From Microbacterium sp. LWH7-1.2 (lineage in GTDB: Bacteria > Actinomycetota > Actinomycetes > Actinomycetales > Microbacteriaceae), in assembly GCF_038397755.1 (NCBI RefSeq), contig NZ_CP151637.1, positions 2,046,001 through 2,110,000 on the forward strand: a stretch of 64,000 bases of DNA, written 5' to 3'. Under the pieces are notes generated by a model. The model did not search any database. It was given only the letters and a program-made list of their open reading frames with translations, and had not been told where the DNA came from. Below are positions 4,929 through 52,662 of the stretch, piece by piece (position 1 is the first letter of the stretch; every line of letters starts with the position of its first letter). The position numbers and the translations under genes are program-made.

Positions 4929-4934
4929 TAGCCT
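4929..4934 (+). promoter_or_regulatory. Leaderless -10 box of the LigD-polymerase gene
   Basis: TAGCCT, six bases, then GTG 4941. Same geometry as other leaderless genes in the window. Confidence 0.6.
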
Positions 4935-4940
4935 GGCCGA

Positions 4941-7450: not shown

Positions 7451-7537
7451 GCCTTCAGCCTGCGCGCCCGCGGCGGCCGCGGCATCCGTTTCCGCTCCCG
7501 GCGGCTCTGCCGTCGGCGGATCGCGCGCTGCCGTCGA

Positions 7538-12329: not shown

Positions 12330-12826
12330 CGCTTGTTCTCCGTCGGGATGGCGTGGGTGAGAGTGGAGTGCCCGGCCTGCGAGTGCAGCTCGGCTGCCTC
12401 ACGCTCGGCCAGGTAGGTCTTGACGTCGCGGCCGACGCGCGCCTCCATGAAGAACGAGAGGAGGGGCACGATGCCGCCCGCGGCGAGCATGCCCAGACGC
12501 AGGAGGTTCCACCGCATCAGGCTCCACACGCGGAAGCACGAGATCAGGTAGACCACGTAGAACCAGCCGTGGGCGACGAGGATGCCGAGCGACAGGTTGA
12601 ACCCGTCACCGGTCGACTCGAGGCCGGAGGCCGTCTCGACGACGGGCGCGAACCACAGGAATCCGCCGGAACCACCGAGGAACAGCTCGTAGCCGACCGC
12701 GTACTTGACGATCATCTCGGCGACGAGCAGCAGCAGCATCGTGCCCGTGATGATCGAGCAGATCTGGTAGAACTTCAGGGCTCCGCGGATCGCCGGAAAG
12801 GAAGCGAGCTTCGGGGCGCGGGGCAT
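12326..12826 (-). CDS. DUF3817 integral membrane protein
   Basis: 166 residues with three to four hydrophobic helices ([59 protein letters not shown]), the pattern of DUF3817, a family commonly encoded next to guaA in actinobacteria. Function unknown. A TAGACT box seven bases before this ATG marks a leaderless start and rules out the longer upstream frame. Confidence 0.85.
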
Positions 12827-12833
12827 GGCCCCC

Positions 12834-12839
12834 AGTCTA
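12834..12839 (-). promoter_or_regulatory. Leaderless -10 box for DUF3817-guaA
   Basis: Minus-strand TAGACT, seven bases, then ATG 12826. Confidence 0.6.
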
Positions 12840-12891
12840 CCCGCGGCGCTGTGCCCGAATCCCTGGCTCAGGGCTGCGGGGCGTTTCCCGC

Positions 12892-13779
12892 TCAGGATGC
12901 TGCGGGCTCGGGGTCGTCGCCGGACGCGCGGTCGTCCTCGAAGTCCTCGACCTCCTTCTCCCACGCGTCCTTCGCGAGGCGGTACCAGAGGTAGAACGCG
13001 AAGCCCGCGAAGACCGCCCACTCGACGGCGTAGAAGATGTTGAGCCAGTTGATGCCCGAGCCCTCGACCGGCGCCGGCGATGAGATCGCGTCGAGACCCG
13101 CGACGGCCTCGACCGAGGCGATGTAGGGCCGGTAGACGAACAGGGCGTCGACATCGTGCCACTGGCCGAGCAGTGCGGCCGGCGACATGCGCGTCAGCGT
13201 CTGCGGATCCTCGCCACGGGGCGGAAGCACCGGCCCTTCGTCGGAGATCAGGCGTCCGGTCACCTCGACGGTCTCGGAGACGGATGCTGCGCCCTCGAGC
13301 TGCTCGACGGCCGCGCGTGCGTCCTCTTCGGTGGAGGCCCACCCGAGCGCCACCGCGACCGAGGTCGGGCCGACCGTCGCGCTCACGTCGGGGTCGATGC
13401 GCAGCTGCCCGGTCACCCAGTAGCCCAGGGCACCGTCGTTGTAGCGCGACTGGACGACGATGAAGTCCTCGGGCACCCAAGTGCCGCGCGTCTGAACGCG
13501 CTGGCCCACCAGCGGCTCGGGGAGGTACTCGCCCGGCAGCGCGACGTCCGCGAGGGGCTGCACCTCCTCCGTCGCCCCCGGGGGCACCGCATTCGTCTGC
13601 ACCGCACGACCCAGCTGCCACTGCCCGAGCCACGCGAACACTCCCGCGACGACGAGGCAGAGCAGCAGCATCCCGATCCATCGCGGCCGCAGCATCACCT
13701 CGCGCAGGGTCGGCGGGAAGGCTTCGGGGGCGAGGTCGGCCGTTCCCGCCGGGTCGGGGTCGGTCATGGCATCCGTCAT
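12892..13779 (-). CDS. SURF1-family cytochrome oxidase assembly protein
   Basis: 295 residues. Two membrane helices, one at about 35-55 (IGMLLLCLVVAGVFAWLGQWQ) and one at about 235-260 (NIFYAVEWAVFAGFAFYLWYRL), enclose an extracytoplasmic domain, the SURF1 topology. SURF1 proteins help insert heme a into cytochrome aa3 oxidase. LGQWQLGRA and PRWIGMLLL are family phrases. The start overlaps the guaB3 stop codon (ATGA), so it is translated from the guaB3 transcript. A trailing acidic tail (about 20 residues) is disordered. Confidence 0.85.
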   Translation of the reverse strand: MTDAMTDPDPAGTADLAPEAFPPTLREVMLRPRWIGMLLLCLVVAGVFAWLGQWQLGRAVQTNAVPPGATEEVQPLADVALPGEYLPEPLVGQRVQTRGTWVPEDFIVVQSRYNDGALGYWVTGQLRIDPDVSATVGPTSVAVALGWASTEEDARAAVEQLEGAASVSETVEVTGRLISDEGPVLPPRGEDPQTLTRMSPAALLGQWHDVDALFVYRPYIASVEAVAGLDAISSPAPVEGSGINWLNIFYAVEWAVFAGFAFYLWYRLAKDAWEKEVEDFEDDRASGDDPEPAAS

Positions 13780-14900
13780 CCCGCGGCGTACGGCGCGACG
13801 ACGACCTCGACCCGCTGGAACTCCTTGAGGTCGGAGTATCCGGTCGTCGCCATGGACTTGCGCAGCGCCCCGATGAGGTTCGCGGTGCCGTCGGCGACCG
13901 GGGCGGGGCCGTAAAGGACCTCTTCGAGCGATGCGACCTGGTCGACCCTCACGCGGCGGCCGCGCGGCAGCTTGGCGTGGTGCGCCTCGGGTCCCCAGTG
14001 GAAGCCCTGGCCCGGAGCATCCGTCGCCCGCGCGAGCGCGACTCCGAGCATCACGGCGTCGGCGCCCATCGCGATCGCCTTGACGATGTCGCCCGACGTG
14101 CCCACGCCACCGTCGGCGATGACGTGCACATAGCGCCCGCCCGACTCGTCGAGGTAGTCGCGGCGCGCGCCCGCGACGTCGGCGACCGCGGTGGCCATCG
14201 GGGCGTGAAGGCCCAGGGTGGCGCGCGTCGTGGACGCCGCTCCCCCGCCGAAGCCGACGAGCACGCCGGCGGCACCCGTGCGCATGAGGTGCAGCGCGGC
14301 GGTGTACGTCGACGCGCCGCCGACGATGACGGGAACGTCGAGGTCGTAGATGAACTTCTTGAGGTTCAGCGGCTGGTCGACGCTCGAGACGTGCTCGGCG
14401 GAGACCGTGGTTCCGCGGATCACGAAGACGTCGACGCCGGCGGCCACGACCGTCTCGTACAGCTCCTGGGTGCGCTGCGGAGTGAGGGAGCCGGCGACCG
14501 TCACGCCCCCGGCGCGGATCTCGGCGAGGCGATCGCGCACGAGCTCGGGCTTGATGGGCTCGGCGTAGAGCTCCTGCATGCGGCGCGTCGCGGCGGCCTT
14601 CTCGAGGCCGGCGATCTCGGCGAGCAGCGGCTCGGGGTCGTCGTAGCGGGTCCAGAGGCCCTCGAGGTCGAGGACGCCGAGGCCGCCGAGCTGACCCAGC
14701 ATGATCGCGGTGCGCGGGCTCACGACCGAGTCCATCGGGGCGCCCAGCACCGGGATGTCGAAGCTGAACGCGTCGATCGTCCAGGTGGTCGAGACGTCCT
14801 CGGGGTTGCGCGTGCGCCGCGACGGCACCACGGCGATGTCGTCGAACGAGTAGGCGCGGCGCGCGCGCTTGGCCCGGCCGAGTTCGATGTCCATGCTCAC
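13776..14900 (-). CDS. guaB3: GuaB3-family IMP dehydrogenase-related protein
   Basis: 374 residues, one TIM barrel of the IMPDH/GMPR superfamily without CBS domains. LGAPMDSVVSPRTA and VIADGGVGTSGDIVKAIAMGADAVMLG are conserved substrate-binding segments. The loop that carries the catalytic Cys in IMPDH (GSICTTR, present in the guaB gene at 20645) reads GGGAASTTRATLG here, without Cys. That is common in actinobacterial GuaB3, whose reaction is not firmly settled, so dehydrogenase activity should not be assumed. The GTG start is fixed by a leaderless -10 box. Confidence 0.85.
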   Translation of the reverse strand: MSMDIELGRAKRARRAYSFDDIAVVPSRRTRNPEDVSTTWTIDAFSFDIPVLGAPMDSVVSPRTAIMLGQLGGLGVLDLEGLWTRYDDPEPLLAEIAGLEKAAATRRMQELYAEPIKPELVRDRLAEIRAGGVTVAGSLTPQRTQELYETVVAAGVDVFVIRGTTVSAEHVSSVDQPLNLKKFIYDLDVPVIVGGASTYTAALHLMRTGAAGVLVGFGGGAASTTRATLGLHAPMATAVADVAGARRDYLDESGGRYVHVIADGGVGTSGDIVKAIAMGADAVMLGVALARATDAPGQGFHWGPEAHHAKLPRGRRVRVDQVASLEEVLYGPAPVADGTANLIGALRKSMATTGYSDLKEFQRVEVVVAPYAAG

Positions 14901-32868: not shown

Positions 32869-32941
32869 TTAGCACTCTGACATTGAGAGTGCTTACGTCA
32901 GTCTAGGCAACCGGCTGGCACTCATGCAACGTGAGTGCCAA
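32869..32941 (-). promoter_or_regulatory. groES promoter with two CIRCE elements
   Basis: CIRCE 1: TTAGCACTC-N9-GAGTGCTTA (32869-32895). CIRCE 2: CTGGCACTC-N9-GAGTGCCAA (32915-32941). Between them the minus-strand -10 TAGACT (32900-32905) pairs with TTGCAT, 18 bases upstream, inside CIRCE 2. HrcA bound here would block RNA polymerase. Confidence 0.85.
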
Positions 32942-33007: not shown

Positions 33008-33037
33008 TTGAGTGCCATTTCGAAGCGGATGTATCAT
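33008..33037 (+). promoter_or_regulatory. Promoter of the Hsp70-like/LuxR operon
   Basis: TTGAGT (33008-33013), 18-base spacer, TATCAT (33032-33037). AACCCC sits directly upstream (33002-33007). The leader is about 90 bases. Confidence 0.5.
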
Positions 33038-33132
33038 CGCAGACGTCGGCCGCTCTTTCGTGGGGAACGAACTAGGGCGGTCGATGCGAGGTCGGGGGAG
33101 CTCGCACGCAAACGATGTGGGGGCGTTTCAGC

Positions 33133-35049
33133 GTGGAATCCTATTTCCTCTCGGTTGATGTCGGGACCAGCCGAGTAGGGGCGGCAACAGCCAGGCTTGC
33201 TCCCGACGGCAGTATCGTCACCTCCTCTTTCCCGCTCGGCCGCCGCGCCGACAGCGTGGCAACCGTGGTCTTCGTCGCCGAAGACGGCGAGATGCTCTTC
33301 GGCGATGCGGCAGAGCGCCGCGGTGTGACGCAGCCAGAGCGATTGATCCGCGAGTTCAAGCGAAGCATCGGCGACGAGGTCCCGATCGTCGTCGGCGGCC
33401 ACTCGATCCGGGCTGAACAGCTGTACGCACGGACCGTCGCCGATGTGATCGACACGGTCGCGGAGCGCGAGGGCGCACGCCCGGAAGGCGTGATCCTGAC
33501 GCACCCCGCGATGTGGGGTCCGCACCGCATCGGCCTGGTGCGGTCGGCGCTCGAGGCGATCGGCGTAGGCGCCGTCGCCTTCATCACCGAGCCCGAGGCG
33601 GCCGCGCGCCACTACGACGCGTCCCGCAACATCGACGACGGCCACATGCTGGCCGTGTACGACCTCGGCGGAGGCACATTCGACTGCGTGGTCCTGCGCA
33701 AGGAGCACGCCGCCTTCGACCTCGTGGGCGAGCCGGTGGGCATCGACAATCTCGGTGGCGCGGACTTCGATGACGCCGTCCTGCGCCACGTGCTGCGCAC
33801 AGCCGAAGTGCCCGCCGAAGCTCTCCAGGACACCTCCCCCGACTCCCGCATCGCGCTCTCCCAGCTGCGTCGCGAGTGCGTCGACGCCAAGGAGGCGCTC
33901 TCCTTCGACTCCGACGCCGTGATCCCGGTGCTCCTGCCGGGTGGGCGCTCGAGCGTGCGGCTGACTCGCGCGGAGTTCGAGGGCATGATCGACGAGTCGC
34001 TGGCCAAGACGATCGACGCTCTCGAGGATGCCCTCGAGGACGCGGGCATCGACCCCGACCAGGTCGAGTCCATCCTCCTGATCGGGGGCTCGTCGCGGAT
34101 CCCGCTGGTCACCCAAGGTCTCTCCGAGCGGTTCGGTCGACCGACCGCGATCGATGCCGACCCGAAGTCCTCGATCGCGCTCGGCGCCGCCCACACCGCA
34201 CTCATCCGCGCGAGCGACGTGCAGCTGGGGGTGTCCGGCGAACTTGCCATCTTCGATGCCACCCGGGCCGCGGCCGCCGAGATCGAGCTCGCGGGATCCC
34301 CGGTCGAGCGCGGCATCCCGGCTCCGGTCGGGCCGGCAGCGGCGGCATCGTCCGCGCCCAGCGCCCGGCACATCGTCGCGATCGCGGGCGGCGCGGTCAT
34401 CGTCGCGGCCGCGATCGTCTTCGGAAGCACGCTCACGGCCGGCACGGGCGCGCTGAACGGGTTCTTCACCGTCTCGAGCGACCCGACGCCCGAGCCCACG
34501 ACCGAGGAGGTCGTGCCCGAGACGACCGCTCCCCAGGCGCAGCAGCCGGCTCCCGAGGGCGCCGCCCCGGTCGCACAGCAGCCGGCCCCGCGTGCGGCCA
34601 ACCCGCAGCGCAAGGGCGCGACCCCGCAGAAGAAGACGACCACCACGACCACCACGACCGAAGCGGCACCGGCGCCCCGCCCGACGAAGGGCGCGTCACC
34701 CGCTCCCAGCACCGGCACGCAGACCGCAGGCACCGGCGACAGCGGCGGCACGGGCACCGGCGACACGGGCACCGGCGACACAGGCGGGACCGGAAGCACC
34801 GGGGGAACCGGTGGCACGGGCACCACCGGCACCGACCCCGAACCCACGCCGGAACCGACGCCGGATCCCACCCAGGAACCGACGCCTGAGCCGACGCCGG
34901 AGCCGACGCCTGAGCCGACGCCGGAGCCGACCCAGGAACCGGCACCCGAACCCACCCAGGAACCGGCACCCGAACCCACCCAGCCGGTGGACCCGCCCCC
35001 CGCGGATCCGGCGCCGGAGCCCACGCCCACCACGGACCCTGCGCCCTGA
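33133..35049 (+). CDS. Membrane-anchored Hsp70-like ATPase with a repeat tail
   Basis: 638 residues from GTG 33133 (an ATG at 33115 would add six). Residues 1-385 form an actin-fold ATPase of the DnaK type: phosphate loop 1 VDVGTSRVG, phosphate loop 2 VYDLGGGTFD, adenosine loop LIGGSSRIPLV. There is no DnaK substrate-binding domain. Instead a linker leads to one membrane helix (about 413-435, HIVAIAGGAVIVAAAIVFGS) and about 200 residues of low complexity: Gln/Pro, a run of nine Thr, Gly-Thr-Asp repeats and PTPE repeats. With the ATPase inside, the tail would be outside, a stalk or wall-spanning sensor (inference). Followed after 22 bases by the LuxR regulator, so probably a signalling partner for it. 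Confidence 0.85.
   Translation: MESYFLSVDVGTSRVGAATARLAPDGSIVTSSFPLGRRADSVATVVFVAEDGEMLFGDAAERRGVTQPERLIREFKRSIGDEVPIVVGGHSIRAEQLYARTVADVIDTVAEREGARPEGVILTHPAMWGPHRIGLVRSALEAIGVGAVAFITEPEAAARHYDASRNIDDGHMLAVYDLGGGTFDCVVLRKEHAAFDLVGEPVGIDNLGGADFDDAVLRHVLRTAEVPAEALQDTSPDSRIALSQLRRECVDAKEALSFDSDAVIPVLLPGGRSSVRLTRAEFEGMIDESLAKTIDALEDALEDAGIDPDQVESILLIGGSSRIPLVTQGLSERFGRPTAIDADPKSSIALGAAHTALIRASDVQLGVSGELAIFDATRAAAAEIELAGSPVERGIPAPVGPAAAASSAPSARHIVAIAGGAVIVAAAIVFGSTLTAGTGALNGFFTVSSDPTPEPTTEEVVPETTAPQAQQPAPEGAAPVAQQPAPRAANPQRKGATPQKKTTTTTTTTEAAPAPRPTKGASPAPSTGTQTAGTGDSGGTGTGDTGTGDTGGTGSTGGTGGTGTTGTDPEPTPEPTPDPTQEPTPEPTPEPTPEPTPEPTQEPAPEPTQEPAPEPTQPVDPPPADPAPEPTPTTDPAP
34840..34983 (+). repeat. Twelve tandem 12-bp units coding PTPE-type repeats
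   Basis: Consecutive 12-base units of the form GARCCSACSCMG encode Glu-Pro-Thr-Pro and Glu-Pro-Ala-Pro variants at the tail of the Hsp70-like protein. Copy number is likely variable between strains. Confidence 0.85.
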
Positions 35050-35071
35050 CGTCGGGGAACGACGATTCATC

Positions 35072-37621
35072 ATGGCTTCACCCACAATGACCGTGGCGGC
35101 GTTCTTCGACGCGACGACCTTCACCGGTTCGCGCCACGCACGTCCTCTCATCGACGCGCTCACAGCTCAGGACATGCCGCCGCGCGTGCTGATCTCGGGG
35201 AACGCAGGCTCCGGCAAGACCACGATGCTGCGCGGCGCCCAGCGCTTCCTCACGCAGAACAGCGCAACGGTCACCGTCCTCGGTCCTGAGACCGATGTCC
35301 TCGACGTTCCCGCCTCGAGCATCCTGCTCGTCGACGACCTGCATCTGCTGCCCGCCGCACAGATGGAGGGGCTGCGAGTGCGCGCGAGCGACCCCGACGC
35401 GGCTCTGGTCGCGACGAGCCGGCCCTGGCCGCACTCTCACGCCCTGTCGTCGATCGCGCGGCACCTCGAGCGCAGCCGGCCCGCCGTGGTGCTGGGCCAC
35501 CTCACGCGCGCGGACGTGCTGGACTACCTCGAGGCGAACGAGCGCACACTGCAGCCGGCGTGTCTGGATCACCTGCTCGAGGTGACGGGCGGGGTGGCGT
35601 GGCTCGTGTCGGCCGCGCTCGCCGCCCACGACGATCGCGACTGCGCGGACGACAGCAGCCACGCCGCGCTCGGCCACGTGCTCGAGCAGAGCGTCGCCCA
35701 CCGGATGGGCGTCGTCGAGGAGGAGGTACGGCGCACCATCGAAGCCATGAGCGTATGGTCGGACGACGCGCCGGCGATCACCGACGCTCTCGACGATGTC
35801 GAAAGCGTCATCGCACAGGGCTATGCGGAGGGGCTGCTGCTGCGCAACGGGCGCCCGGTGCCGGTGGTGCGCTCCGCAGTACGCGCGAACCTGTCAGCTC
35901 GGCGGCTGGTCGACCTCATCGCGGTCATGCCCGGCGGCATGGACCCGCTCGCCTCCCGCACCGGCGACTGGCTCGCGGACATCCGCGACCCGCGCCTGTC
36001 ATCGGCCCTCGTCGAACACGGCGACCAGCTCCTCGATTCCGATCCCGTTCGTGCGGGCGAACTGTACTGCGCTGCGGCGGAAGCGGGAGTGAACTCGGCT
36101 GACCTCGCCGCGAAGCGCGCACAGGCGGCGTGGTCATGCGGCGACATCGACTCGGCCGCCCAGCTCCTCGACGAAGCGATGGCGTTCGCCGACCGCTCCG
36201 AGAGCGTCACGGCGCGCATCGCCGATGTCGCGGCCGCCACCTGGTCGATGCGGGGAATGCTCCACACCGGGTCGGGGTTCTACGATGTCTTTCCGCCGAC
36301 CACGGCCGAGGCATCCGTCCGCCGCCTGATCGCCCGCATCGGGATCGGCGAGGCGGGCTCGGCCGAGACCGAAGACGCATCCGCGCCCGGAGTGCAGCGC
36401 GCGGCGCCCTCGACGCTGGGCGTAGCGATGAACCTCCTGCAGCGAGGTCTTCAGACGTCGCTGCGCACCGATCACGCCGATGCAGCGGTAGCCGATCTCG
36501 TGCGCGCGTCGCACCTGTACACGGCGTCGCGCTCGTCGACGCCGATGCCGGAGCACCCCGCGGTGATCGCCGCCGTCGCCGCCATCAGCGCCGGCGACCT
36601 CGCGACAGCGCGGGCGGTCATCGACGCGGCGATCGAGGGACATCAGGGGACCCCGTGGGTGATGTCGCGGCTCCTGCTGTGGAAGTCGTGGATCGCCCTG
36701 CAGCAGGCGAGGGGCGCGCGGTCCCGCGAAGCGCTCGAGGCCGCGGTCGCGCTGACGCCCAAGGCTGCCGCGCGCGATGAGCTGCTCCTTCAGGCGATCC
36801 GCGTCGGACTGGCGCGGCGTTATGAGGACGCCGCGGGCCTGGAGGCGGCGTGGGAGCGCGGCCGCGACGGCCTCCTCGACGCGGACGTCGATCTCTACAC
36901 GCTGCTTCCGCTGGTCGAGTTCGTCAGCGCCGGTGCGCGGGTGGGCGACGAGACGGTCACCGAGCCGCTCTTCACGCGTGCGCTCGCGCTCGTCGACGCG
37001 CTGGGTCGGCCGGCGCTCTGGTCGGCGCATCTGCGGTGGGCCGGCATCCAGCGCGGCATCCTCCGCAACCTCCCCGAGTCGCTGAGCCCTCACGCCCACG
37101 CGCTGGTGGACGCCGCCCCGCACAGTGGTGTCGCCGAGACCATGGCGAAGGCCGGGCGACTGTGGACGTCCGTCCTCGCGGGCTCGGTCGACGTCGACGA
37201 GGTCGACAGGGCGGCCCAGTCCCTCGCCGCGATAGGACTGAGATGGGATGCCGCGCGGCTGGCCGGTCAGGGAGCCGGACGCTCCGACGACCGCAAGGTG
37301 TCGGCACGTCTGCTCGCGCGGGCGCGGGAGGTGTACCCGCAGGAGAAGCCCGCGGTCGCCGAGACGCCCGGCGAGAACGCCGAAACGCCTTCGGACGCCA
37401 CGGAATCAGTGCTGAGCGAGCGCGAGACGGATGTCGCGCGTCTCGTCGTGGAGGGCAAGACGTACGCCGAGATCGGCGAGACGATCTTCATCTCCCCGCG
37501 CACCGCGGAGCACCACATCGCCAGCATTCGTCGGCGGCTCGGCGCGACCTCGCGCTCCGATCTGATCGCCAAGCTGCGCGTCGCCCTCTCGCAGACCCGG
37601 CCCTTCGCGGAGGACGGCTGA
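35072..37621 (+). CDS. Large ATPase/LuxR-type regulator, IniR/MalT-like
   Basis: 849 residues. N-terminal P-loop ATPase: Walker A GNAGSGKT (43-50), Walker B SILLVDDLHLL (Asp88-Asp89) and ATSRPWP as sensor. The middle 500 residues are helical repeats of TPR type (pairs such as AGELYCAAAEAG, ALEAAVALTPKAAA). The C-terminal GerE/LuxR helix-turn-helix (about 785-845) reads LSERETDVARLVVEGKTYAEIGETIFISPRTAEHHIASI. This is the MalT/STAND architecture, also that of mycobacterial IniR, the regulator of iniBAC. It precedes an IniB-like gene, supporting that role. Repeated GAACCCCC boxes between its stop and the IniB-like start are candidate binding sites. Start chosen at ATG 35072, which has only a weak ribosome site. 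Confidence 0.85.
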   Translation: MASPTMTVAAFFDATTFTGSRHARPLIDALTAQDMPPRVLISGNAGSGKTTMLRGAQRFLTQNSATVTVLGPETDVLDVPASSILLVDDLHLLPAAQMEGLRVRASDPDAALVATSRPWPHSHALSSIARHLERSRPAVVLGHLTRADVLDYLEANERTLQPACLDHLLEVTGGVAWLVSAALAAHDDRDCADDSSHAALGHVLEQSVAHRMGVVEEEVRRTIEAMSVWSDDAPAITDALDDVESVIAQGYAEGLLLRNGRPVPVVRSAVRANLSARRLVDLIAVMPGGMDPLASRTGDWLADIRDPRLSSALVEHGDQLLDSDPVRAGELYCAAAEAGVNSADLAAKRAQAAWSCGDIDSAAQLLDEAMAFADRSESVTARIADVAAATWSMRGMLHTGSGFYDVFPPTTAEASVRRLIARIGIGEAGSAETEDASAPGVQRAAPSTLGVAMNLLQRGLQTSLRTDHADAAVADLVRASHLYTASRSSTPMPEHPAVIAAVAAISAGDLATARAVIDAAIEGHQGTPWVMSRLLLWKSWIALQQARGARSREALEAAVALTPKAAARDELLLQAIRVGLARRYEDAAGLEAAWERGRDGLLDADVDLYTLLPLVEFVSAGARVGDETVTEPLFTRALALVDALGRPALWSAHLRWAGIQRGILRNLPESLSPHAHALVDAAPHSGVAETMAKAGRLWTSVLAGSVDVDEVDRAAQSLAAIGLRWDAARLAGQGAGRSDDRKVSARLLARAREVYPQEKPAVAETPGENAETPSDATESVLSERETDVARLVVEGKTYAEIGETIFISPRTAEHHIASIRRRLGATSRSDLIAKLRVALSQTRPFAEDG

Positions 37622-37634
37622 GGACACGGGTGCG

Positions 37635-37715
37635 GAACGCCCCCAGAACCCCCAAGAACCCCCCTACCGATTCGGGAAAACCCCCGATTCGCCGATTGTG
37701 AGAAACACCTAATGT
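37635..37715 (+). promoter_or_regulatory. IniB-like promoter with GAACCCCC direct repeats
   Basis: AACCCCC occurs at 37647-37653, 37657-37663 and 37679-37685, with a degenerate AACGCCCCC at 37636. The first two are spaced 10 bases, one helix turn. A -10 box TAATGT (37710-37715) lies 24 bases after the last repeat and has no good -35, as expected for an activated promoter. AACCCCC also occurs twice upstream of the second IniB-like gene. Confidence 0.5.
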
Positions 37716-37749
37716 CGAAAGTGATTCTCGAAGTGACAGGAGCCGAGTC

Positions 37750-38493
37750 ATGACAACACCTTTGGCAACGATTGCCGACGCATTGATCGAGTTCATACTC
37801 AGTCTCCTGGGCGACCCGGCCGCCGCCGCGGAGTTCGAGGAGGACCCGCAGGGAACGCTGGCCCGCAACGGTCTCAGCGACGCGTGCGTCGAAGACGTCC
37901 GTGCCGTCGCCCCCGTCATCGTGGACCACCCCCACGTCAGCCCCAAGCCGCCGATGCCTCCGGCACCGCCGAAGCCGCCGTCGGTCGAGAACGAGATCTA
38001 CACCATCACGAACAGCTTCGCGATCGACAACCGCGCGACGATCGTGGACCAGTCGGTGAACCAGAACATCTGGGCGGACGGCGACGTCAACCAGATCTTC
38101 GATCAGGAGGCCGTCGTCAACAGCGGCGACAACGGTGCTGCTGCCGGCGATGACGCCGAGGTCGACAACTCCGAAGACACCACCACGGTGGGTGACGTGG
38201 CCATCGGGAACGAAGACACGACGACCACCATCGACGGTTCGTTCAACGACAACTCGACGAACACCGACACCGACGTGGATGCCGAGGCCGACGACTCGTT
38301 CAACAACTCGCCCGATGCTGCGCCCGTCGTGGCTGTCGATGCTGCGCCCGCCGAGGCCGCGCCCGTCGAAGAGGTCGCGCCGCCGGTCGAGATCCAGACG
38401 GTGGCCGACGACGCCTACGATTACGCCGTTGACGCGGCGACGTTCGTCGCGGAGGAACCTCCGCTCGAGCCGGAGCCCGAGGACCAGTACTAA
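37750..38493 (+). CDS. IniB-like protein with Asn/Asp-rich repeat module
   Basis: 247 residues. Residues 1-60 match the IniB N-terminal domain (LIEFILSLLGDPAAAAEFEEDPQGTL, then DVRAVAPVIVDH). A Pro-rich linker leads to about 115 residues of Asn/Asp/Thr/Ser repeats (VDQSVNQNIWADGDVNQ, NSGDNGAAAGDDAEVDNS, GSFNDNSTN) strikingly like the protein encoded at 42769. The rest is acidic and Ala/Pro-rich. No signal peptide or membrane helix. Mycobacterial IniB is Gly/Ala-rich and of unknown function; the family link rests on the N-terminus and the neighbouring dynamins. CAGGAG ribosome site. Confidence 0.75.
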   Translation: MTTPLATIADALIEFILSLLGDPAAAAEFEEDPQGTLARNGLSDACVEDVRAVAPVIVDHPHVSPKPPMPPAPPKPPSVENEIYTITNSFAIDNRATIVDQSVNQNIWADGDVNQIFDQEAVVNSGDNGAAAGDDAEVDNSEDTTTVGDVAIGNEDTTTTIDGSFNDNSTNTDTDVDAEADDSFNNSPDAAPVVAVDAAPAEAAPVEEVAPPVEIQTVADDAYDYAVDAATFVAEEPPLEPEPEDQY

Positions 38494-38502
38494 GGATCCG
38501 AC

Positions 38503-39282
38503 GTGCCCGAACGGGAAGACGACGACCGCTCGCGCGCCCTGGCAGGTCCAGGGCGCGCGAGCGCGCGTCCCAAGCCGCCCCCGCCCACGTTCGAGGAGGC
38601 CCCGCCCCCGGGCGACGCCATCGGCCGTGTGCCGGTGCGCAAGGTTCCGGCCTCGAGTGTGCAGCGCCCGCCCGCGCCGACGGTCGCGCCCAGACAAGGG
38701 ACGCCTCAGCCTCCGCCACCGCGGCGAGAAGCTCCGGAGCGGCCGCCGACCGCCAGCGCGAACGCGGCTCCTGTGCTCACCAAGCGTCCCCCGCCGTTCT
38801 CGGTCAGGCTCAGCCAGTTCCTGTGGGTATTGAGCCTGCTCACCGGCGGCGTGGCGGTGGTCTATCTGTTCGTCATCCGCGAGGACCAGCTCCCCATCAT
38901 CGCGGACGTCGCCCGCGCCGTCGAAGAAGGCCGGAGCGAAGAGACCTACACCGCGGCGGCCGACATCATCTTCTGGCTGGTGTTCGGCACGGCGCTCGCG
39001 CTGCTGCTGGTGCAGATCGTGCTTCTCGTGTCGTTCACCAACCGCAAGCCGCACGTCCGGTGGTGGCAGCTGGCCACCGTGGCGGGGCAGATCCTGCTGT
39101 TCCTGCTCTCAGCGGAGATCTTCACCACGGGCGAGCACGCCCCCGTGCTGCGGCAGGTGCTCCTCGCTCAGTGGGCTCTCGCCCTCCTCGCGCTCCTCTT
39201 CAGCACCTTCCACGGCGCCCTCCAGTGGACCGCCCGCAAGTACGACGTCCGCCGCGCCGGTTCCGACGACGGCGAGTTCTGA
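38503..39282 (+). CDS. Four-helix membrane protein with Pro-rich head, unknown function
   Basis: 259 residues. Residues 1-95 are Pro/Arg-rich and disordered. Four hydrophobic helices follow at about 105-127, 150-175, 187-208 and 215-237. It starts nine bases after the IniB-like gene with AAGGA before the GTG, so they form one operon. No family recognised. Its last 174 bases overlap the end of the convergent IniC-like gene. Position suggests a membrane partner of the IniB-like protein or of the dynamins (inference). Confidence 0.7.
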   Translation: MPEREDDDRSRALAGPGRASARPKPPPPTFEEAPPPGDAIGRVPVRKVPASSVQRPPAPTVAPRQGTPQPPPPRREAPERPPTASANAAPVLTKRPPPFSVRLSQFLWVLSLLTGGVAVVYLFVIREDQLPIIADVARAVEEGRSEETYTAAADIIFWLVFGTALALLLVQIVLLVSFTNRKPHVRWWQLATVAGQILLFLLSAEIFTTGEHAPVLRQVLLAQWALALLALLFSTFHGALQWTARKYDVRRAGSDDGEF

Positions 39283-40734
39283 CGCGACCTCCTCGAGACT
39301 GCGGATCACCGAGCGGGCCACCTCCACGGTGGCCCGCTCGGCGAGCGGGGACTCGCTGAGCGTGCGCCATCGCGCCAGCAGTTCGTCGACGCGCTCCCGG
39401 CTCTCGGCGGTGGTGGCGGTCTCCGCCAGTCCCAGACGGGCGCCGGCAGAGGGCCCGGTTCCGCCGATGATGCGCTCCGCCTCCTCCGCATCCAGTCGGC
39501 TCAGCGGCAGTCCCGAGGAGCGCGCCCGCGACAGGAGCGAGAGCTCGCGCAACGTGTGCGCCGACGCGTAGATGCGCTCGACGCCACCCAGGACCGCATC
39601 AGCACCGTCGCGCGGCTTCTCACGCAGGAGCGTCTGCAGCGCATCGAGGACGCCGCGCACCTTCAGCGCCCCGGCGCGGGTGCGGAACTGCAGCTGGATG
39701 AACTGCTGCAGTTCGTTCAGTCCGCTCTGCTGAACGAGTTGTTCCGAGAGCTGCGAGGAGTCGGCCGCACCGCCGCGGATCAGCGCGCTCGCGAGGCGCA
39801 CGCCGAAGATGCCGAATCGGTTGAGCAGCGCGCGGCGGACGTCCTCGCTCAACGATGTCGCCTCCGTCGGGCGCACGAATCGGTCGGCCGACACCATCAG
39901 AGCCTCACGGGAGGTGCGGTCCATTCCCGCCAGGTCGCGGAAGGCGGCGAACTCGTCCTCGCGCAGCGTCCGCGCGCTCTCGGCGAGGAGCCCCGCGACG
40001 GGCACCACCCCGAGCGACAGCGACGCGAGGTCCCCGTCCTTCTCATAGCGGCGCGCCACTTTGCCCGCCGACAGCAGCGAATCGATGCGACCGGATCCGA
40101 TCTCGTCGGCGCGCGACAGCACGGCGACGGCGTTCACGGTCTGCGACGCACCGGCAGCCGTGTCGCGGAACGACTCCAGGAACTTCAGGTCCGATGCGTG
40201 CAGGTGGCGCATCAGGTAGACGATCGCGTCGGCCGACGAGGGCTCGGTGTCGGGCACGAGGAAGTCCGTGGAGCGCGCGGACACATCGCGCGAGAGCGAA
40301 GCGATTCCCGGGGTGTCGATCAGGATGAGCGAGCGCAGCCCGGTCGACGGCCAGCCGACGTCGATCCAGGCGACGTCTTCCGGCGCGACGCCGTCGAGAT
40401 CGAGCACGAGCCGCCCGGCGTCGCGCCGGATGGGCATCGAGCGGGATTCCCCGTCATAGGGATGCATGGTGATCGTCGGAGTCGCCGAGTAGCGGTACCA
40501 CGTCACCACCCGCGTGCATTCGCCCGCGTCCGTGGGGGCCAGGCGTTCGCCGAGCATCGCGTTCAGCAGCGTGGACTTGCCGGCCTTGACCATGCCCGCG
40601 ATGGCGAGACGGATCGGCTCGCTGAGGCGCCGTTCCAGGTCGGCGAGCAGGTCGCCGGCTTCCGGATCGTCGGCGTACAGCTCGCGCGCAGCGCGGACCA
40701 GAGCACTCGCGTCGTCGAGGATCGACACCCTCAC
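39109..40734 (-). CDS. Dynamin-like GTPase, IniC-type
   Basis: 541 residues. G1 GMVKAGKST (about 47-55), G3 DTPGIAS, G4 SRAD. The remainder is helical, the stalk of bacterial dynamins, but without an obvious hydrophobic hairpin. Bacterial dynamins remodel or seal the inner membrane, often as unequal pairs. The last 58 codons are antisense to the four-helix membrane gene and give an acidic tail (EGAEEEREEGESPLSEEH) that is unlikely to be part of the GTPase fold. GTG start overlaps the IniA-like stop (GTGA). Confidence 0.82.
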   Translation of the reverse strand: MRVSILDDASALVRAARELYADDPEAGDLLADLERRLSEPIRLAIAGMVKAGKSTLLNAMLGERLAPTDAGECTRVVTWYRYSATPTITMHPYDGESRSMPIRRDAGRLVLDLDGVAPEDVAWIDVGWPSTGLRSLILIDTPGIASLSRDVSARSTDFLVPDTEPSSADAIVYLMRHLHASDLKFLESFRDTAAGASQTVNAVAVLSRADEIGSGRIDSLLSAGKVARRYEKDGDLASLSLGVVPVAGLLAESARTLREDEFAAFRDLAGMDRTSREALMVSADRFVRPTEATSLSEDVRRALLNRFGIFGVRLASALIRGGAADSSQLSEQLVQQSGLNELQQFIQLQFRTRAGALKVRGVLDALQTLLREKPRDGADAVLGGVERIYASAHTLRELSLLSRARSSGLPLSRLDAEEAERIIGGTGPSAGARLGLAETATTAESRERVDELLARWRTLSESPLAERATVEVARSVIRSLEEVASELAVVGTGAADVVLAGGPLEGAVEGAEEEREEGESPLSEEHLPQHGGVLARGEDLR

Positions 40735-42623
40735 CGCTTCGCTGCCTCCACGGCTCGCAGTGCCGGAAGGGCAGGGATCTTGGCCTTCAGCGCCTCGAGC
40801 TGCTGCACTCGCAGCTGAAGCTCCTTCACTCGCTGGTCCTGCTGCCCCGCGTACGTGCCGGCGGCCTGCTTGGCGGCGAGCACCGCGTCCGAGAGCGAGC
40901 GGTGCAGCTCGTCGGCGATGCTGCCGAAGTGGTCGCGCGCGGCGCGCTGCACGATGCGCAGTCGGTCCTTCAGCTGCTTGCCGACCTGGAACTGCACCTC
41001 GTCGAGATAGCGACGCACGAGGGTCTTGGCCTCGAAGCGCCGGCGCGACAGCCGCGAGTTCATGTCCTCACGATAGGCCCTGCGCCCCACCAGCACGCCG
41101 GCCAGGAGCGACAGCGGGTTGATGAGCGACAGGCCGATCAAGCCGGTGGCGAGGCCGACCATGAGCACGCCGCCGTACGAGCCGCGGACGCCGATGAAGA
41201 TCTTCTCGCCGGCCCCCATCTGACGATGGTCGAGCGTGGCGATGTTCTCCACGTCGTCGAGGATGCCCTCGGTGTCGCCGACGTAGATCACCGGAAGGTC
41301 GGTCTCGCCCTGGATGAACAGTTCGGCGACCTCCTCCGAGAGCCATCGCGACCGCTCGTCGGTCCACACGAACGTCTCCGAGACGGCCGCGGAGACGCGC
41401 TGATCGAGCCACTCGGTGAGTTGATCCCAGATCGGCCCGGGGTCGCCCTCGTCGATGGCGTTCTCCGCCTCGCGCTGCACCTTGCGAAGGCGGTCGCGCA
41501 GGTCGTGCTCCATGTCCGAGATGAGGTCGGCGACGCCGTCGTTCAGCTGCACCTGCCATTTGGACGACCGTCCGCGGAACTCGTCGGCGCGCGCTTTCGC
41601 GTCCTCGAGCTGCGCGATGAGCTTGGGGGTGTCCTCGGGGTGGAGGATCGCCTCGAGCTCGGAAGTCAGCGACATCTTGAGCTGGTCGACGACCGAGATG
41701 AGGTCGTGCACCGCGCTGCGCGCTTGGATGACCTCGGCGCGTCCGAGGACTTCCTGACGCAGGTGGCTCACGAGCGCGGGGAAGCCCGACTCCTCGTTCA
41801 GCCCGCGGTCGCGCTCCTCCGCCGCGATCAGCCGCAGGTCGCTCGAGACGGCGAAGATCGGCACGTCCCCGATATCACCGAGATGCGAGCGGTCGATGCG
41901 CTCGATGTCGCGCCATTGCGGGTACAGGTCCGTCTTGGCGAGCACGGCCGCGACATTGGGGGATACGCGCATCGCGTGCTTGAGGAACTGCACCTCGGGC
42001 TCGGTGTACTCCTGTGACGCGTCCGAGACGAGCAGGACCGCGTGCGCCGATGACAGCGCGGCGAGTGTCGCCAGGGCGTTCGTCGAGTCGAGGCCGCCGA
42101 CGCCCGGCGAGTCCACCAGTCTCAGGCCGCCCTTGAGCAGCTCGCGGGGAAGCACCACCTCGGCGGTGATGACCTTGCGCTCGTTGGCGGGGTTCCCGCT
42201 CTCCGAGACGTACTGGGCCAGGTTCTCGAGGGGGATGCGCTGGCGAACGGGAGGCGCCTCGTCGTCGCCCTGGATCGTCACCCAGGCATCGGGCTCCGCC
42301 GCGTAGCCGACGGACGTCGGCACACTCGTGGCCACGTCGTCGTCGACCGGGCAGACGGGCGCGTTGACGAGGGCGTTGATGAGCTTGCTCTTGCCCTGCT
42401 TGAACTCGCCGACCACGATGACCCGCACATTGGGGTCCTGCAGACGGGCGTGCGTGTTCTCGAGGCGTTTGGCCAGGTCGCCGCGGCCCGTCGTGGTGGC
42501 GAGCTGACCGACGTTGTCGACGATGGAGACGAGCGCCTTGCTCGCCGCCGGCGCGACCGGCGGCGCTGTCGGGTTGTCGGCGTCCCCTGCGACCGCCTTC
42601 TGGACGGCTGTGCTTTCAGCCAC
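40731..42623 (-). CDS. Dynamin-like GTPase, IniA-type
   Basis: 630 residues. G1 GEFKQGKSK (72-80; the usual final T is K), G3 DSPGVGGLD (from Asp171), G4 AKTD (to Asp232). A hydrophobic hairpin near residues 480-520 (GVLMVGLATGLIGLSLINPLSLLAGVLVG) is the expected membrane paddle. The N-terminal 30 residues are Ala/Pro-rich. First gene of the iniA-iniC pair, GTG start with AAGGGGGAG ribosome site. In mycobacteria IniA binds membranes and is induced by cell-wall inhibitors; a comparable envelope-stress role is likely here. Confidence 0.85.
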   Translation of the reverse strand: MAESTAVQKAVAGDADNPTAPPVAPAASKALVSIVDNVGQLATTTGRGDLAKRLENTHARLQDPNVRVIVVGEFKQGKSKLINALVNAPVCPVDDDVATSVPTSVGYAAEPDAWVTIQGDDEAPPVRQRIPLENLAQYVSESGNPANERKVITAEVVLPRELLKGGLRLVDSPGVGGLDSTNALATLAALSSAHAVLLVSDASQEYTEPEVQFLKHAMRVSPNVAAVLAKTDLYPQWRDIERIDRSHLGDIGDVPIFAVSSDLRLIAAEERDRGLNEESGFPALVSHLRQEVLGRAEVIQARSAVHDLISVVDQLKMSLTSELEAILHPEDTPKLIAQLEDAKARADEFRGRSSKWQVQLNDGVADLISDMEHDLRDRLRKVQREAENAIDEGDPGPIWDQLTEWLDQRVSAAVSETFVWTDERSRWLSEEVAELFIQGETDLPVIYVGDTEGILDDVENIATLDHRQMGAGEKIFIGVRGSYGGVLMVGLATGLIGLSLINPLSLLAGVLVGRRAYREDMNSRLSRRRFEAKTLVRRYLDEVQFQVGKQLKDRLRIVQRAARDHFGSIADELHRSLSDAVLAAKQAAGTYAGQQDQRVKELQLRVQQLEALKAKIPALPALRAVEAAKR

Positions 42624-42716
42624 GAATGCTCCCCCTTGTATGCACTCCCCCGCACCACGCTAGTCGAAGGTCAGGAAGCGCGGGCGGTACCGGAAAATAC
42701 ATGTCCATAACGTGGT

Positions 42717-42753
42717 CTTGCCCGGCCACCCTCGCGGAGGGCGGCCGGGCAAG
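42717..42753 (-). terminator. Terminator of the second IniB-like gene
   Basis: cttgcccggcc (42717-42727) pairs with ggccgggcaag (42743-42753), and the inner ccctc/gaggg extends the stem. Confidence 0.7.
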
Positions 42754-42768
42754 GTCTGTGTGAGCGGA

Positions 42769-43821
42769 TCAGAAGTCGACGATGTCGTCGCCCGCGACGT
42801 CGCCGCCAGGGCTGAAGAAGTTGCCGCTGTTCTCCCACTCGAGCTCGTTCTCCACCGAGTTGTCGACCTCGCTCGTGAACGAGTCCTCGATGTCGACGTC
42901 GACGTCCGTCGAGTTGTCGGTCTCGTTGAAGGAGTCGTCGATCTCGACCTCGAACTCGTTCCACTCGTTGGTCGAGTTGTCCTGGAACGAGTCCTGGATG
43001 TGGGTGTCGATCCACGTGTTGCCGATCGACACGTCGCCGACGCTGATCGTCGTCTGCGAGTTGTCGACGTCGGCGTCGTCGCCGGCAGCCGCACCCCAGT
43101 CACCCGAGTTCGCCACGGCCTCCTGCTCGAACTCCTGGTCGACGTCGCCGTTCACGAAGCCGAACGACTGCGCGACCGACTGGTCGACGACCTGTGCACG
43201 GTTGTCGATGTCGAGGTTCAGCGAACCCGACGCGGCAGCAGCCGCAGCAGCAGCGCCGCCGGCACCGCCGAGGGCGAGGTTCAGGTCGCCGCCGACACCG
43301 GTGTTGTACTGGCGGACGCCGACCGTCACCGAGTCGTCGTTGAGCGTGGTCTCGTTGAAGGAGTCCGTGTAGTTGTCCGAGTTGTCGTTGTACGAGTCGT
43401 CGGTCTCCGAGTTGTCGTCGGTGGAGTTGTCCGAGTTGTCGTTGAACGAGTCCTCGATCTCGACCTCGACGTCGGTCTCGACGGAGTTGTCCGAGTTGTC
43501 CGAGTTGTCCGAGTTGTCCGAGTTGTCGGTGTTGCCGCTGAAGTTGCCGTTGCCGGAATCCTCGATGTCGGTGTTGCCGATCTCGTTGTCGGAGGCGATG
43601 TCGTTGCCGACGGCGCTGTTGACGTTGTTGTCGTCGTTGTCGACGGCGCTGTTGACGTTGTTGTCCTCGACCTCGACGTCGGTGTCGTTGCCGACGACGT
43701 TGCCGTCGTTGCCGACGACGTTGTCCTCGACCTCTACGTCGGTGTTGCCGATGTCGTTGTTGGAGAGGACGTCTTCGATGTTGGTCTGAACACCGAGGAC
43801 ATTCACATTCTCGTCAGCCAT
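42769..43821 (-). CDS. Asn/Asp-rich repeat protein, IniB-related
   Basis: 350 residues, extremely rich in Asn, Asp, Ser, Val and Thr, very acidic, no signal or membrane helix. The first 170 residues are short repeats (NDTDVEVEDNNVNSAV, TDNSDNSDNSDNS, DSFNDNSDNS). A Gly/Ala stretch (GGAGGAAAAAAAS) precedes about 120 residues homologous to the repeat module of the IniB-like protein at 37750: DNRAQVVDQSV, GDVDQEFEQEAVANSGD, GAAAGDDADVDNS, GDVSIGNTW, DSFQDNSTN. The IniB N-terminal domain is absent. Alternating Asn/Asp-Ser patterns suggest a beta-solenoid or amyloid-like filament (inference). Start set at the third possible Met, with AAAGGA six bases upstream. Confidence 0.7.
   Translation of the reverse strand: MADENVNVLGVQTNIEDVLSNNDIGNTDVEVEDNVVGNDGNVVGNDTDVEVEDNNVNSAVDNDDNNVNSAVGNDIASDNEIGNTDIEDSGNGNFSGNTDNSDNSDNSDNSDNSVETDVEVEIEDSFNDNSDNSTDDNSETDDSYNDNSDNYTDSFNETTLNDDSVTVGVRQYNTGVGGDLNLALGGAGGAAAAAAAASGSLNLDIDNRAQVVDQSVAQSFGFVNGDVDQEFEQEAVANSGDWGAAAGDDADVDNSQTTISVGDVSIGNTWIDTHIQDSFQDNSTNEWNEFEVEIDDSFNETDNSTDVDVDIEDSFTSEVDNSVENELEWENSGNFFSPGGDVAGDDIVDF
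43484..43528 (-). repeat. Five tandem 9-bp units coding Asp-Asn-Ser
   Basis: Plus-strand gagttgtcc is repeated five times (last unit gagttgtcg), encoding DNS triplets in the second IniB-like protein. Confidence 0.8.
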
Positions 43822-43908
43822 GATCATTCCTTTGTTCGCGGAGCCTGGTGGCGTACGTGTAAGAGTCTGTTCTCAGGGCCGCCCGGTCACATCCGGGGTG
43901 ATCCCGCA

Positions 43909-43945
43909 ACCTCCCCAGGGGAGGTGGGGGTTCCGGTTGGGGGTT
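43909..43945. promoter_or_regulatory. Candidate regulator sites upstream of the second IniB-like gene
   Basis: A palindrome acctcccc-a-ggggaggt (43909-43925) lies next to two minus-strand AACCCCC boxes (43926-43932, 43939-43945), the word repeated before the first IniB-like gene. They lie about 65-80 bases from a weak -10 (TACACG, 43856-43861). Confidence 0.35.
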
Positions 43946-50811: not shown

Positions 50812-52662
50812 TTACTCGACCGTGACGGACTTCGCGAGGTTGCGGGGCTGGTCGACGTCGAGGCCCTTCGCCGTGGCGAGACCCATCGCGAAGATGTGCA
50901 GCGGAACCACCGCGAGGAGCGGCTCGAAGAACGGGCCGGCCAGGGGGATGCGGAGCACCTCGTCGGCCTTGGGCAGCACCGCGGCGTCCCCCTCTTCGGC
51001 GATCGCGATGACGCGGGCGCCCCGCGCCCGGATCTCCTCGATCGAGGAGATGACCTTCTTGTGCATCTCCGACGACTTGCGCGGGGACGGCACGACGACG
51101 AACACCGGCTGGCCGGGCTCGATCAGCGCGATCGGGCCGTGCTTGAGTTCGCCGGCCGCGAAGCCCTCTGCGTGGATGTACGCGAGCTCCTTGAGCTTGA
51201 GCGCACCCTCGAGCGCGATCGGGAAGCCGACGTGACGCCCGAGGAAGAGCACCGAGCGGGTGTCGGCCATCCAGTGGGCGAACTGCTCGATGCGCGGCTG
51301 CTCGCGCTCGAGGATCTGCGCGATCTTGGCGGGGATGGCCTCGAGCTCGCGCACGTGGTCGGCGGCGTCCGCCGCGGTGATCGCGCCGCGGACGCGACCG
51401 ATGTGCAGGGCCATCAGGTACAGCGCCGTGATCTGCGCGACGAAGGCCTTCGTCGAGGCGACCGCGACCTCGGGGCCCGCGTGGGTGTAGACGATCGCGT
51501 CGGACTCGCGCGGGATCGTGGCGCCCTGTGTGTTGCACACCGACAGCGTCTTCGCGCCGTGCTCGCGGGCGTACTTGACGGCCATGAGCGTGTCCATGGT
51601 CTCGCCCGACTGGCTGATCGAGACGACGAGGGTGTCGGGGCCGATCACCGGGTCGCGGTAGCGGAATTCGTGGGCGAGCTCGACGTCGACGGGGATGCGG
51701 GTCCACTGCTCGATCGCGTACTTGCCCACCTGGCCGGCGTAGGCCGCGGTGCCGCAGGCGATCACGATGATGCGCGAGACGCCGGCGAACAGCTTGTCGA
51801 GTCCGTCGAGCTCGGGGATCACGACCTCGCCGTCGCGGACGCGGCCGCGCAGCGTGTTGGCGACCGCCTCGGGCTCCTCCGAGATCTCCTTCGCCATGAA
51901 CGACGACCAGCCGCCCTTCTCGGCGGCCGAGGCGTCCCACGTGACCTCGAACGGCTCGACCTCCACCGTGTTGCCGGCGAAATCGGTGACGGTCACGGCG
52001 TCGGGGGTGATCGCGACGATCTGGTCCTGGCCGATCGCGAGGGCGTTGCGGGTGTGCTCGACGAACGCGGCGACGTCCGAGCCGAGGAAGTTCTCCCCCT
52101 CGCCCAGGCCGATGACGAGCGGCGAGTTGCGGCGCGCGCCGACGACGAGGCCGGGCTGGTCCTCGTGCATCGCGAGGAGGGTGAAAGCGCCCTCGAGACG
52201 GGAGACGACGGCACGGAAGGCCTGCTCGAGGTCACCGGCGCGGCGGTACTCGCGACCGAGGAGCACGGCGGCGACCTCGGTGTCGGTCTCGCTGCGGAAG
52301 GTGTACCCGTCCGCGATCAGCTCGTCCTTGAGCTCGGAGAAGTTCTCGATGATGCCGTTGTGGATCACGGCGAGCTTGTCGTCGTCGGCGAGGTGCGGGT
52401 GCGCGTTGCCGTCGGTCGGCCCGCCGTGCGTTGCCCAGCGGGTGTGTCCGATGCCGGTGGTGCCGTCGGCGAGCGGGTGGGCCGCGAGGTCGTCGCGCAG
52501 CACCTTGAGCTTGCCCGCGCGCTTGCGCATGCCCAGTCCGCCGTCGCCGTCGATCACGGCGATGCCCGCGGAGTCGTACCCGCGGTACTCGAGGCGCGAA
52601 AGCCCCGAGATCAGGACGGCCTGGCTCTGGCGCGGGCCCACGTATCCGACGATTCCACACAT
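50812..52662 (-). CDS. glmS: Glutamine-fructose-6-phosphate aminotransferase
   Basis: 616 residues; first step to UDP-GlcNAc. The N-terminal class II amidotransferase begins MCGIVGYVG with Cys2 as nucleophile after Met removal; two SIS isomerase domains follow (SGETMDTLMAVKYARE, RSVLFLGRHVGFPIALEGALKLKE) and the protein ends RNLAKSVTVE. Start fixed by a leaderless box. The minus frame stays open upstream, but that is only high-GC read-through. Confidence 0.96.
   Translation of the reverse strand: MCGIVGYVGPRQSQAVLISGLSRLEYRGYDSAGIAVIDGDGGLGMRKRAGKLKVLRDDLAAHPLADGTTGIGHTRWATHGGPTDGNAHPHLADDDKLAVIHNGIIENFSELKDELIADGYTFRSETDTEVAAVLLGREYRRAGDLEQAFRAVVSRLEGAFTLLAMHEDQPGLVVGARRNSPLVIGLGEGENFLGSDVAAFVEHTRNALAIGQDQIVAITPDAVTVTDFAGNTVEVEPFEVTWDASAAEKGGWSSFMAKEISEEPEAVANTLRGRVRDGEVVIPELDGLDKLFAGVSRIIVIACGTAAYAGQVGKYAIEQWTRIPVDVELAHEFRYRDPVIGPDTLVVSISQSGETMDTLMAVKYAREHGAKTLSVCNTQGATIPRESDAIVYTHAGPEVAVASTKAFVAQITALYLMALHIGRVRGAITAADAADHVRELEAIPAKIAQILEREQPRIEQFAHWMADTRSVLFLGRHVGFPIALEGALKLKELAYIHAEGFAAGELKHGPIALIEPGQPVFVVVPSPRKSSEMHKKVISSIEEIRARGARVIAIAEEGDAAVLPKADEVLRIPLAGPFFEPLLAVVPLHIFAMGLATAKGLDVDQPRNLAKSVTVE

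Follow-up and report, generated by a model that had tools for sequence, protein, structure and literature searches.

An iniBAC-type locus in Microbacterium with conserved Hsp70-like and TM4 partners and a predicted operator

We analyzed a 64,000-nucleotide stretch of the Microbacterium sp. LWH7-1.2 genome (contig NZ_CP151637.1, positions 2,046,001 to 2,110,000; hereafter the window), in which an earlier note had recognized an extended locus resembling mycobacterial iniBAC. Domain and family matches confirmed all seven genes that it had placed there, between window positions 33115 and 43827: an Hsp70-like ATPase (Hsp70L), an IniR-like regulator, IniB1, TM4, two dynamin-type GTPases (IniC-like and IniA-like), and AsnB2. 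The locus is of wider occurrence than the earlier note had envisaged; it is of the iniBAC type, Hsp70L and TM4 are conserved in it, and its operator can be predicted. In the whole genome PF00012 was matched only twice, once by a full-length DnaK and once by the Hsp70L of the locus, the IniB N-terminal domain (IniB_NTERM) was matched once, and the same gene arrangement appears in other genera and families; the gene set is therefore more than a chance grouping.

The first gene of the locus, hsp70L (33115..35049, plus strand, or possibly starting from a GTG at 33133), encodes a protein that matches PF00012 with 148.6 bits over residues 63-369; the match ends at profile position 379 of 599, having begun at position 47, and no substrate-binding domain was matched in the protein. 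Residues were read at nine alignment columns, and the equivalents of DnaK D8, T11, K70, E171, D194, and T199 are all kept. Hydropathy predicts a transmembrane (TM) segment at residues 420-438, and the tail is P/T/G/E-rich and of low complexity. The regulator gene follows after a 22-nt gap (35072..37621, plus strand) and encodes a STAND/LuxR protein that covers positions 4-825 of the 827-position NF038181 profile (361.5 bits, E = 1e-107); we call it IniR-like, not IniR, because this score lies under the curated cut-off. It carries a P-loop (GNAGSGKT), a Walker B motif (ILLVDD), and a C-terminal GerE/LuxR helix-turn-helix (HTH; PF00196, 49.5 bits), while its middle region gave no Pfam match. IniB1 (37750..38493, plus strand) begins with the IniB N-terminal domain (NF038175, 68.7 bits; cut-off, 40) and continues as a D/N/S-rich low-complexity region; its AlphaFold2 (AF2) model has a predicted local distance difference test (pLDDT) value of about 80 in the N-terminal helices and mostly low values in the remainder. 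TM4 (38503..39282, plus strand), which starts after a 9-nt gap, is predicted to span the membrane with four TM helices and has a Pro-rich N-terminus; at E 0.1 it matched no family in Pfam or NCBIfam.

The remaining three genes lie on the minus strand. The IniC-like dynamin GTPase (39109..40734; PF00350, Dynamin_N, 41.9 bits) and the IniA-like dynamin GTPase (40731..42623; PF00350, 71.9 bits) overlap by 4 nt, and the latter aligns with the M. smegmatis IniA structure 6j72 over residues 31-607 with 430.7 bits. AsnB2 (42769..43827), separated from IniA by 145 nt, is 33% N+D, and no IniB N-terminal domain was detected in it. Its AF2 model is unreliable (pLDDT, 40.6), and it has the segment DQSV.Q...GDV.Q.F.QEA..GD..AAGDDA..DNS in common with IniB1. 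The seven genes probably form the transcription units Hsp70L-IniR, IniB1-TM4, and AsnB2-IniA-IniC. The TM4 and IniC open frames are convergent, with a 174-base overlap (39109-39282). Reading by eye, we noted in the AsnB2-IniA gap (42624-42768) an inverted repeat that is rich in GC, has no T-run, and is followed by the TAnnnT word TAGCGT; this repeat may keep the dynamins at a lower expression level than AsnB2. Two CIRCE-type heat-shock elements, each with one mismatch to the consensus, lie in the groES-hsp70L interval at 32869-32895 and 32915-32941.

Named genomes were scanned with a 14-sequence IniA alignment, and the best 80 of at least 514 relatives were kept; these 80 named loci are the closest relatives and not an unbiased sample. 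The nearest is that of M. ureisolvens, with 97% in IniA. Hidden Markov models (HMMs) built from the window and its relatives detected IniC in 80/80 of these loci, IniR and TM4 in 72/80 each, and Hsp70L in 67/80. Hsp70L lies immediately upstream of IniR and is co-directional with it in 66 of the 80, as it is in the window. Of the 13 named loci in which Hsp70L was not detected, 12 are cut off on the relevant side by the end of the contig, and the other, L118, was positive by tblastn. In L118 a single open frame (3844-7983) seems to fuse Hsp70L with IniR, which was discarded as evidence because the P/T-rich tail turns R/H-rich just before the IniR start, as would result from a frameshift within the repeat; in L130, Hsp70L and IniR are both broken across several frames. 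The classical iniB-iniA-iniC order was seen in Arthrobacter-group loci.

Searching more widely, we detected IniA in 47 of 345 class genomes; IniR hits occurred in 11 of 149 order genomes. Fifty loci (L015-L064) were taken, 10 around IniR hits and 40 around IniA hits (L025-L064), with lower-scoring or additional hits set aside in G217, G243, G299, G229, G281, and G378; at least two duplicate named loci (L017 = L117 and L019 = L116). In f22 loci the Hsp70L model also picked up true DnaK six times (L028, L033, L044, L045, L046, and L049; at least 1118 bits to L044:33-1931), and these hits were removed before counting. Both Hsp70L and IniR were present in 26 of the 40 IniA-anchored loci (adjacent in 18, apart in 8); 10 had neither, 4 had Hsp70L only, and none had IniR only. 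Contig ends cut one locus with neither (L033) and one with Hsp70L only (L049), the latter from the same genome as L054. An IniA-type locus with Hsp70L beside IniR is a conserved locus.

A predicted IniR-type operator with fixed -10 spacing upstream of iniB is newly found here. The motif was learned separately for each group from upstream regions shortened to exclude the iniR coding end and the AsnB2 repeats. The Arthrobacter-group motif (17 non-redundant of 27 regions) reached a log likelihood (LL) of 220, versus 84-93 for shuffled sequences, and the Microbacterium-type motif (24 of 28 regions) reached 288, versus 88-100. The predicted pattern reads GGG..aaCCCCCGATGC, and a G-run together with a CCCCGATGC half occurs in both motifs. 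In the window, the predicted operator of the iniB1-TM4 unit lies at 37668..37691 on the plus strand, 58 nt before the IniB1 start, and scores 26.2 bits with the Microbacterium position weight matrix (PWM), whose training group includes this site; a -10-like TAATGT starts 18 nt downstream. Among the 58 iniB upstream regions extracted (the remaining iniB-type genes failed the start pattern), 52 contain a site of at least 14 bits. A TAnnnT word lies downstream of 50 of these 52 sites, at an offset of 18 nt in 16 and 19 nt in 34; the background rate of the word is 0.10% per position. The iniB-type genes are duplicated in L104 (6869, 8544) and L105 (7528, 14709), where each copy has its own operator.

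A second predicted operator precedes the AsnB2-IniA-IniC unit at 43888..43911 on the minus strand, 60 nt before the AsnB2 start, with a -10-like CAGACT starting 18 nt downstream; a PWM whose training set contained no AsnB2 upstream regions gives it 13.9 bits (2.1e-5 per position). Because AsnB2 starts are unreliable in some loci, the 2.6-kb stretches before IniA were scored, ten loci being too short. A site of at least 14 bits was found in 12 of 27 of these AsnB2 upstream regions, all outside the training set, versus 2 of 368 controls cleared of the iniB site (P = 6e-14). An earlier count with an uncleared control gave 13/28 versus 14/348 (P = 1e-9) and included L079 as well as L106, which had been misfiled as Microbacterium type; that control was flawed because near-palindromic iniB sites can score on the opposite strand. 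Both P values are optimistic, since the loci are related. Of 29 AsnB2 stretches scoring at least 5, 21 have [CT]AnnnT at an offset of 18 or 19, and no other offset has more than 2; this looser -10 word was picked after seeing the data, and TAnnnT gives 6/26 among stretches of at least 8.5 bits.

Across 1.69 Mb of loci, the Microbacterium PWM at 14 bits or more marked the IniR-IniB gap, AsnB2 in 17 loci, and 7 other places; one of the 17 AsnB2 hits (L079) sits within the frame of the gene itself, 368 nt ahead of IniA. One of the 7 other places is an extra operator-like match in the window, outside the locus (51997-52020, minus strand, 14.6 bits). In the 4.45-Mb genome, a consensus built on the sites at 37671-37691 and 43888-43911 is matched with 2 mismatches or fewer at those two places only, and ten more places match it with three. 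Recurrence of the predicted operator before AsnB2 suggests that the iniB1-TM4 and AsnB2-IniA-IniC arms are probably co-regulated, which lends indirect support to the earlier proposal that the regulator controls the repeat proteins as well as the dynamins. Collectively, the domain matches, the synteny in the 80 named loci, and the conserved predicted operator support the iniBAC-like interpretation of the earlier note, and the neighborhood comparison that it had suggested shows conserved co-localization.

Upstream regions of iniB in the Mycobacterium group (n = 13, 10 non-redundant) have a motif of their own, a tandem CCCCTAATCCCCTAA (LL, 149 versus 45-47 for shuffled sequences). In M. tuberculosis, chromatin immunoprecipitation sequencing (ChIP-seq) placed IniR directly upstream of iniBAC (PMC5760070). 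The word CCCCTA[AG][CT]G occurs in 18/24 Arthrobacter-group regions, 6/13 Mycobacterium-group regions, and 7/34 others, the last being the mixed rest. Because the Microbacterium PWM scores low in the Mycobacterium group (4.0 to 12.7 bits on three upstream regions), the link between the operators of different groups is one of layout and a common word, not of one motif.

We propose, with a probability of roughly one half, that this is an iniBAC-type envelope-stress locus outside mycobacteria in which Hsp70L acts as a membrane input to IniR and one operator serves both units. Membrane-held Hsp70L, with its tail outside, would keep the IniR-like STAND activator inactive or would prime it. Envelope damage, or an ensuing change in ATP or sugar, would release IniR, which would bind the predicted operator just upstream of the two promoters and jointly turn on IniB1-TM4 and AsnB2-IniA-IniC. 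IniA and IniC would then remodel or cut the membrane, with the IniB proteins and TM4 as accessories to remodeling. The proposal builds on features read from the DNA: gene content, Hsp70L-IniR adjacency, and the predicted operator, which keeps a fixed distance to the -10 element and recurs before AsnB2. Three functions would be carried over by analogy from mycobacteria, where IniR activates iniBAC (PMC5760070), IniA cuts membranes in vitro (PMC6715688), and inactivation of IniA/IniC lowers vesicle output in M. tuberculosis (PMC11077946), pointing to a need for both in normal vesicle output. For the window we infer that Hsp70L is the input, that IniR is the operator-binding protein, and that the stress is one of the envelope. 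A controlling role for Hsp70L is proposed by analogy with the STAND activator MalT, which is held inactive by MalY (PMC10427625), and its direct basis is adjacency and co-occurrence with IniR. The earlier suggestion that Hsp70L may read the wall through its tail and signal to the regulator is compatible with the predicted topology and with the position of the two genes.

Several observations weigh against this proposal. The IniR-like match to NF038181 (361.5 bits) lies under the curated equivalog cut-off of 750. G073 has a strong IniR relative and no IniA match in the genome. Fifteen of the 27 AsnB2 upstream regions, including that of the window (13.9), score under 14 bits, and no operator of at least 14 bits precedes hsp70L in the window. 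A membrane anchor is not universal: no TM-like stretch is seen in the Hsp70L of the Microbacterium loci L021 and L070, in 11 of the 13 copies that adjoin IniR in the Mycobacterium group (all but L040 and L043), or in some others. A literature search gave no expression, binding, phenotype, or induction data for non-mycobacterial members. Finally, Hsp70L and IniR are both present yet non-adjacent in 10 of the 50 loci L015-L064, and G160, G199 (f32), and G238 pair Hsp70L with dynamins without a full-length IniR. The IniR relative of G073 (L015, 5724-10331; 487 bits) lies in a long open frame and has an altered P-loop, GPDGHGRS, and in G238 (L064, 11298-13361) an Hsp70 domain is fused to WD40 repeats directly 3' of two dynamin-type genes.

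The pairing of Hsp70L with IniA/IniC in G160, G199, and G238 would be expected if Hsp70L were instead an effector, an often membrane-tethered ATPase for the assembly or disassembly of IniA/IniC or of IniB polymers, with IniR alone sensing stress. The f31 and f16 loci, which place Hsp70L away from IniR, beside IniB or after IniC, and three Mycobacterium-group loci (L039-L041) with a second Hsp70L directly after IniC (about 12400-14400) are consistent with this. We nonetheless consider an effector role doubtful: Hsp70L-IniR adjacency is by far the commonest layout (66/80 named loci), six loci with more distant IniA/IniC and without a full-length IniR (L057-L060, L062, and L063) also lack Hsp70L, and 29 of 95 loci retain the dynamins although at least two of four ATPase residues are changed in their Hsp70L. 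A second Hsp70L also occurs on the far side of IniR in L042 and L045-L048.

The fate of these ATPase residues was compared with that of the IniR P-loop. Most Arthrobacter-group IniR proteins are without the P-loop (ATPase) domain, and their Hsp70L residues are intact; the Mycobacterium group shows the reverse, with the IniR P-loop kept and the Hsp70L residues degenerate. Script counts over 95 loci, in which Hsp70L was taken as degenerate when its best copy had at most two of the K70, E171, D194, and T199 equivalents, gave 37 with intact Hsp70L and no IniR P-loop, 29 with both, 25 with degenerate Hsp70L and a P-loop, and 4 with neither; split or truncated loci (L024, L030, L072, L083, L105, and L130) and the duplicates L116 and L117 were omitted. 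After correction, both were lost in 2/95 loci (L028 and L035), the P-loops of L070 and L076 having been missed by the Walker B pattern. Outside the Arthrobacter group, the P-loop K is replaced by R in L023, L032, and L127. A tree-aware independent-pairs test, which has low power, could draw on 5 and 8 pairs when limited to supported branches and was not significant (median P = 1). With few events on the tree and this result, the trade-off is only suggestive.

One possible explanation, which we put forward tentatively, is that Hsp70L and IniR act as a single switch with two parts: an Hsp70-type ATPase, anchored in the membrane in many lineages, would be coupled to a STAND activator, and one working nucleotide switch would be enough. 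Hsp70L would then have decayed in the Mycobacterium group, where the IniR P-loop was kept; most of the Arthrobacter group would have retained Hsp70L and dropped the IniR ATPase domain; and Microbacterium of the window type would keep both. If true, this would be a new kind of envelope-stress signaling unit, with the whole iniBAC-type locus under one conserved operator.

The same comparison bears on whether IniR might itself sense trehalose and/or ATP, as proposed in mycobacteria, with Hsp70L a mere neighbor or minor modulator. Trehalose is described as an activating cue of iniBAC in PMC5760070, a rise in ATP is tied to mycobacterial iniBAC induction in PMC6104191, and ATP is likewise proposed as a cue in PMC13413693; the P-loop is retained in the IniR of the window. 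However, Hsp70L is kept beside IniR across several families, and such ATP sensing is not expected in most of the Arthrobacter group, where the ATPase domain of IniR is gone. We regard this alternative as unlikely.

The earlier note had also raised protection against phages or pores, for which we found scant support. The two dynamins match PADLOC Leo models, which carry no cut-offs and which we take to be dynamin models (IniA versus LeoBC, 65.6 bits over residues 49-580, and versus LeoA, 46.9; IniC versus LeoA, 27.2). Mycobacterial IniA explains the IniA protein far better (430.7 bits), Hsp70L, IniB1, TM4, and AsnB2 gave no PADLOC match, and IniR gave one, through its HTH end. The neighbors are of housekeeping type (GroES, RarD, and a methyltransferase with a THUMP-like domain), and we regard an anti-phage or anti-pore defense module as very improbable.

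In the favored reading, Hsp70L is a regular partner of the system, and the comparison suggests that iniBAC-type loci extend beyond mycobacteria with this largely overlooked protein, some lineages appearing to run the system with an IniR that lacks the ATPase domain. Both trehalose and ATP have been proposed for the sensing of wall damage by iniBAC, and the predicted operator together with these soil bacteria allows the question to be tested. The earlier note held that the mycobacterial operon lacks the Hsp70 part; as a rule, this is wrong. We defined the Mycobacterium group as genus code g66 (15 loci, L045 being assigned by a 1039-bit match to M. smegmatis IniA), and Hsp70L is present in all 15, beside IniR in 13 (L036-L048) and after IniC in 2 (L050 and L061, with weak scores of 96 and 112 bits). 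A dnaK-like gene beside iniR is mentioned for M. smegmatis, and for that species only, in Boot 2017 (PMC5760070). This was the only work joining iniA with "dnaK-like" in a literature search that covered few subscription papers.

Comparison with known systems places the locus as follows. Like DnaK/Hsp70, Hsp70L has a nucleotide-binding domain with catalytic residues; unlike these proteins, it has no matched substrate-binding domain and instead carries a TM segment and a P/T-rich tail. Like E. coli MalT, the IniR-like protein is a STAND activator with a P-loop NTPase and a C-terminal LuxR HTH, and the parallel between an inhibitory Hsp70L and proteins such as MalY, which in the model for MalT hold the activator inactive, is an analogy of role. 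Several features set the window apart from mycobacterial iniBAC: iniB1 lies on the plus strand, and iniA-iniC is inverted on the minus strand as a separate unit headed by AsnB2, so that iniB, iniA, and iniC do not follow in that order in one operon; TM4 is added, having no match in the g66 loci; and Hsp70L has a predicted TM segment and all ATPase residues, whereas Mycobacterium-group copies differ at the D8, K70, E171, and T199 equivalents. The host of the window is expected to be without mycolic acids. In common with mycobacterial iniBAC, the window has an IniR-type regulator that matches NF038181 at full length, a protein with the IniB N-terminal domain (NF038175), and IniA and IniC dynamins, one of them alignable along IniA. 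The likeness extends to a GC-rich repeat upstream of iniB and to an Hsp70-like gene near iniR, as in the 15 Mycobacterium-group loci.

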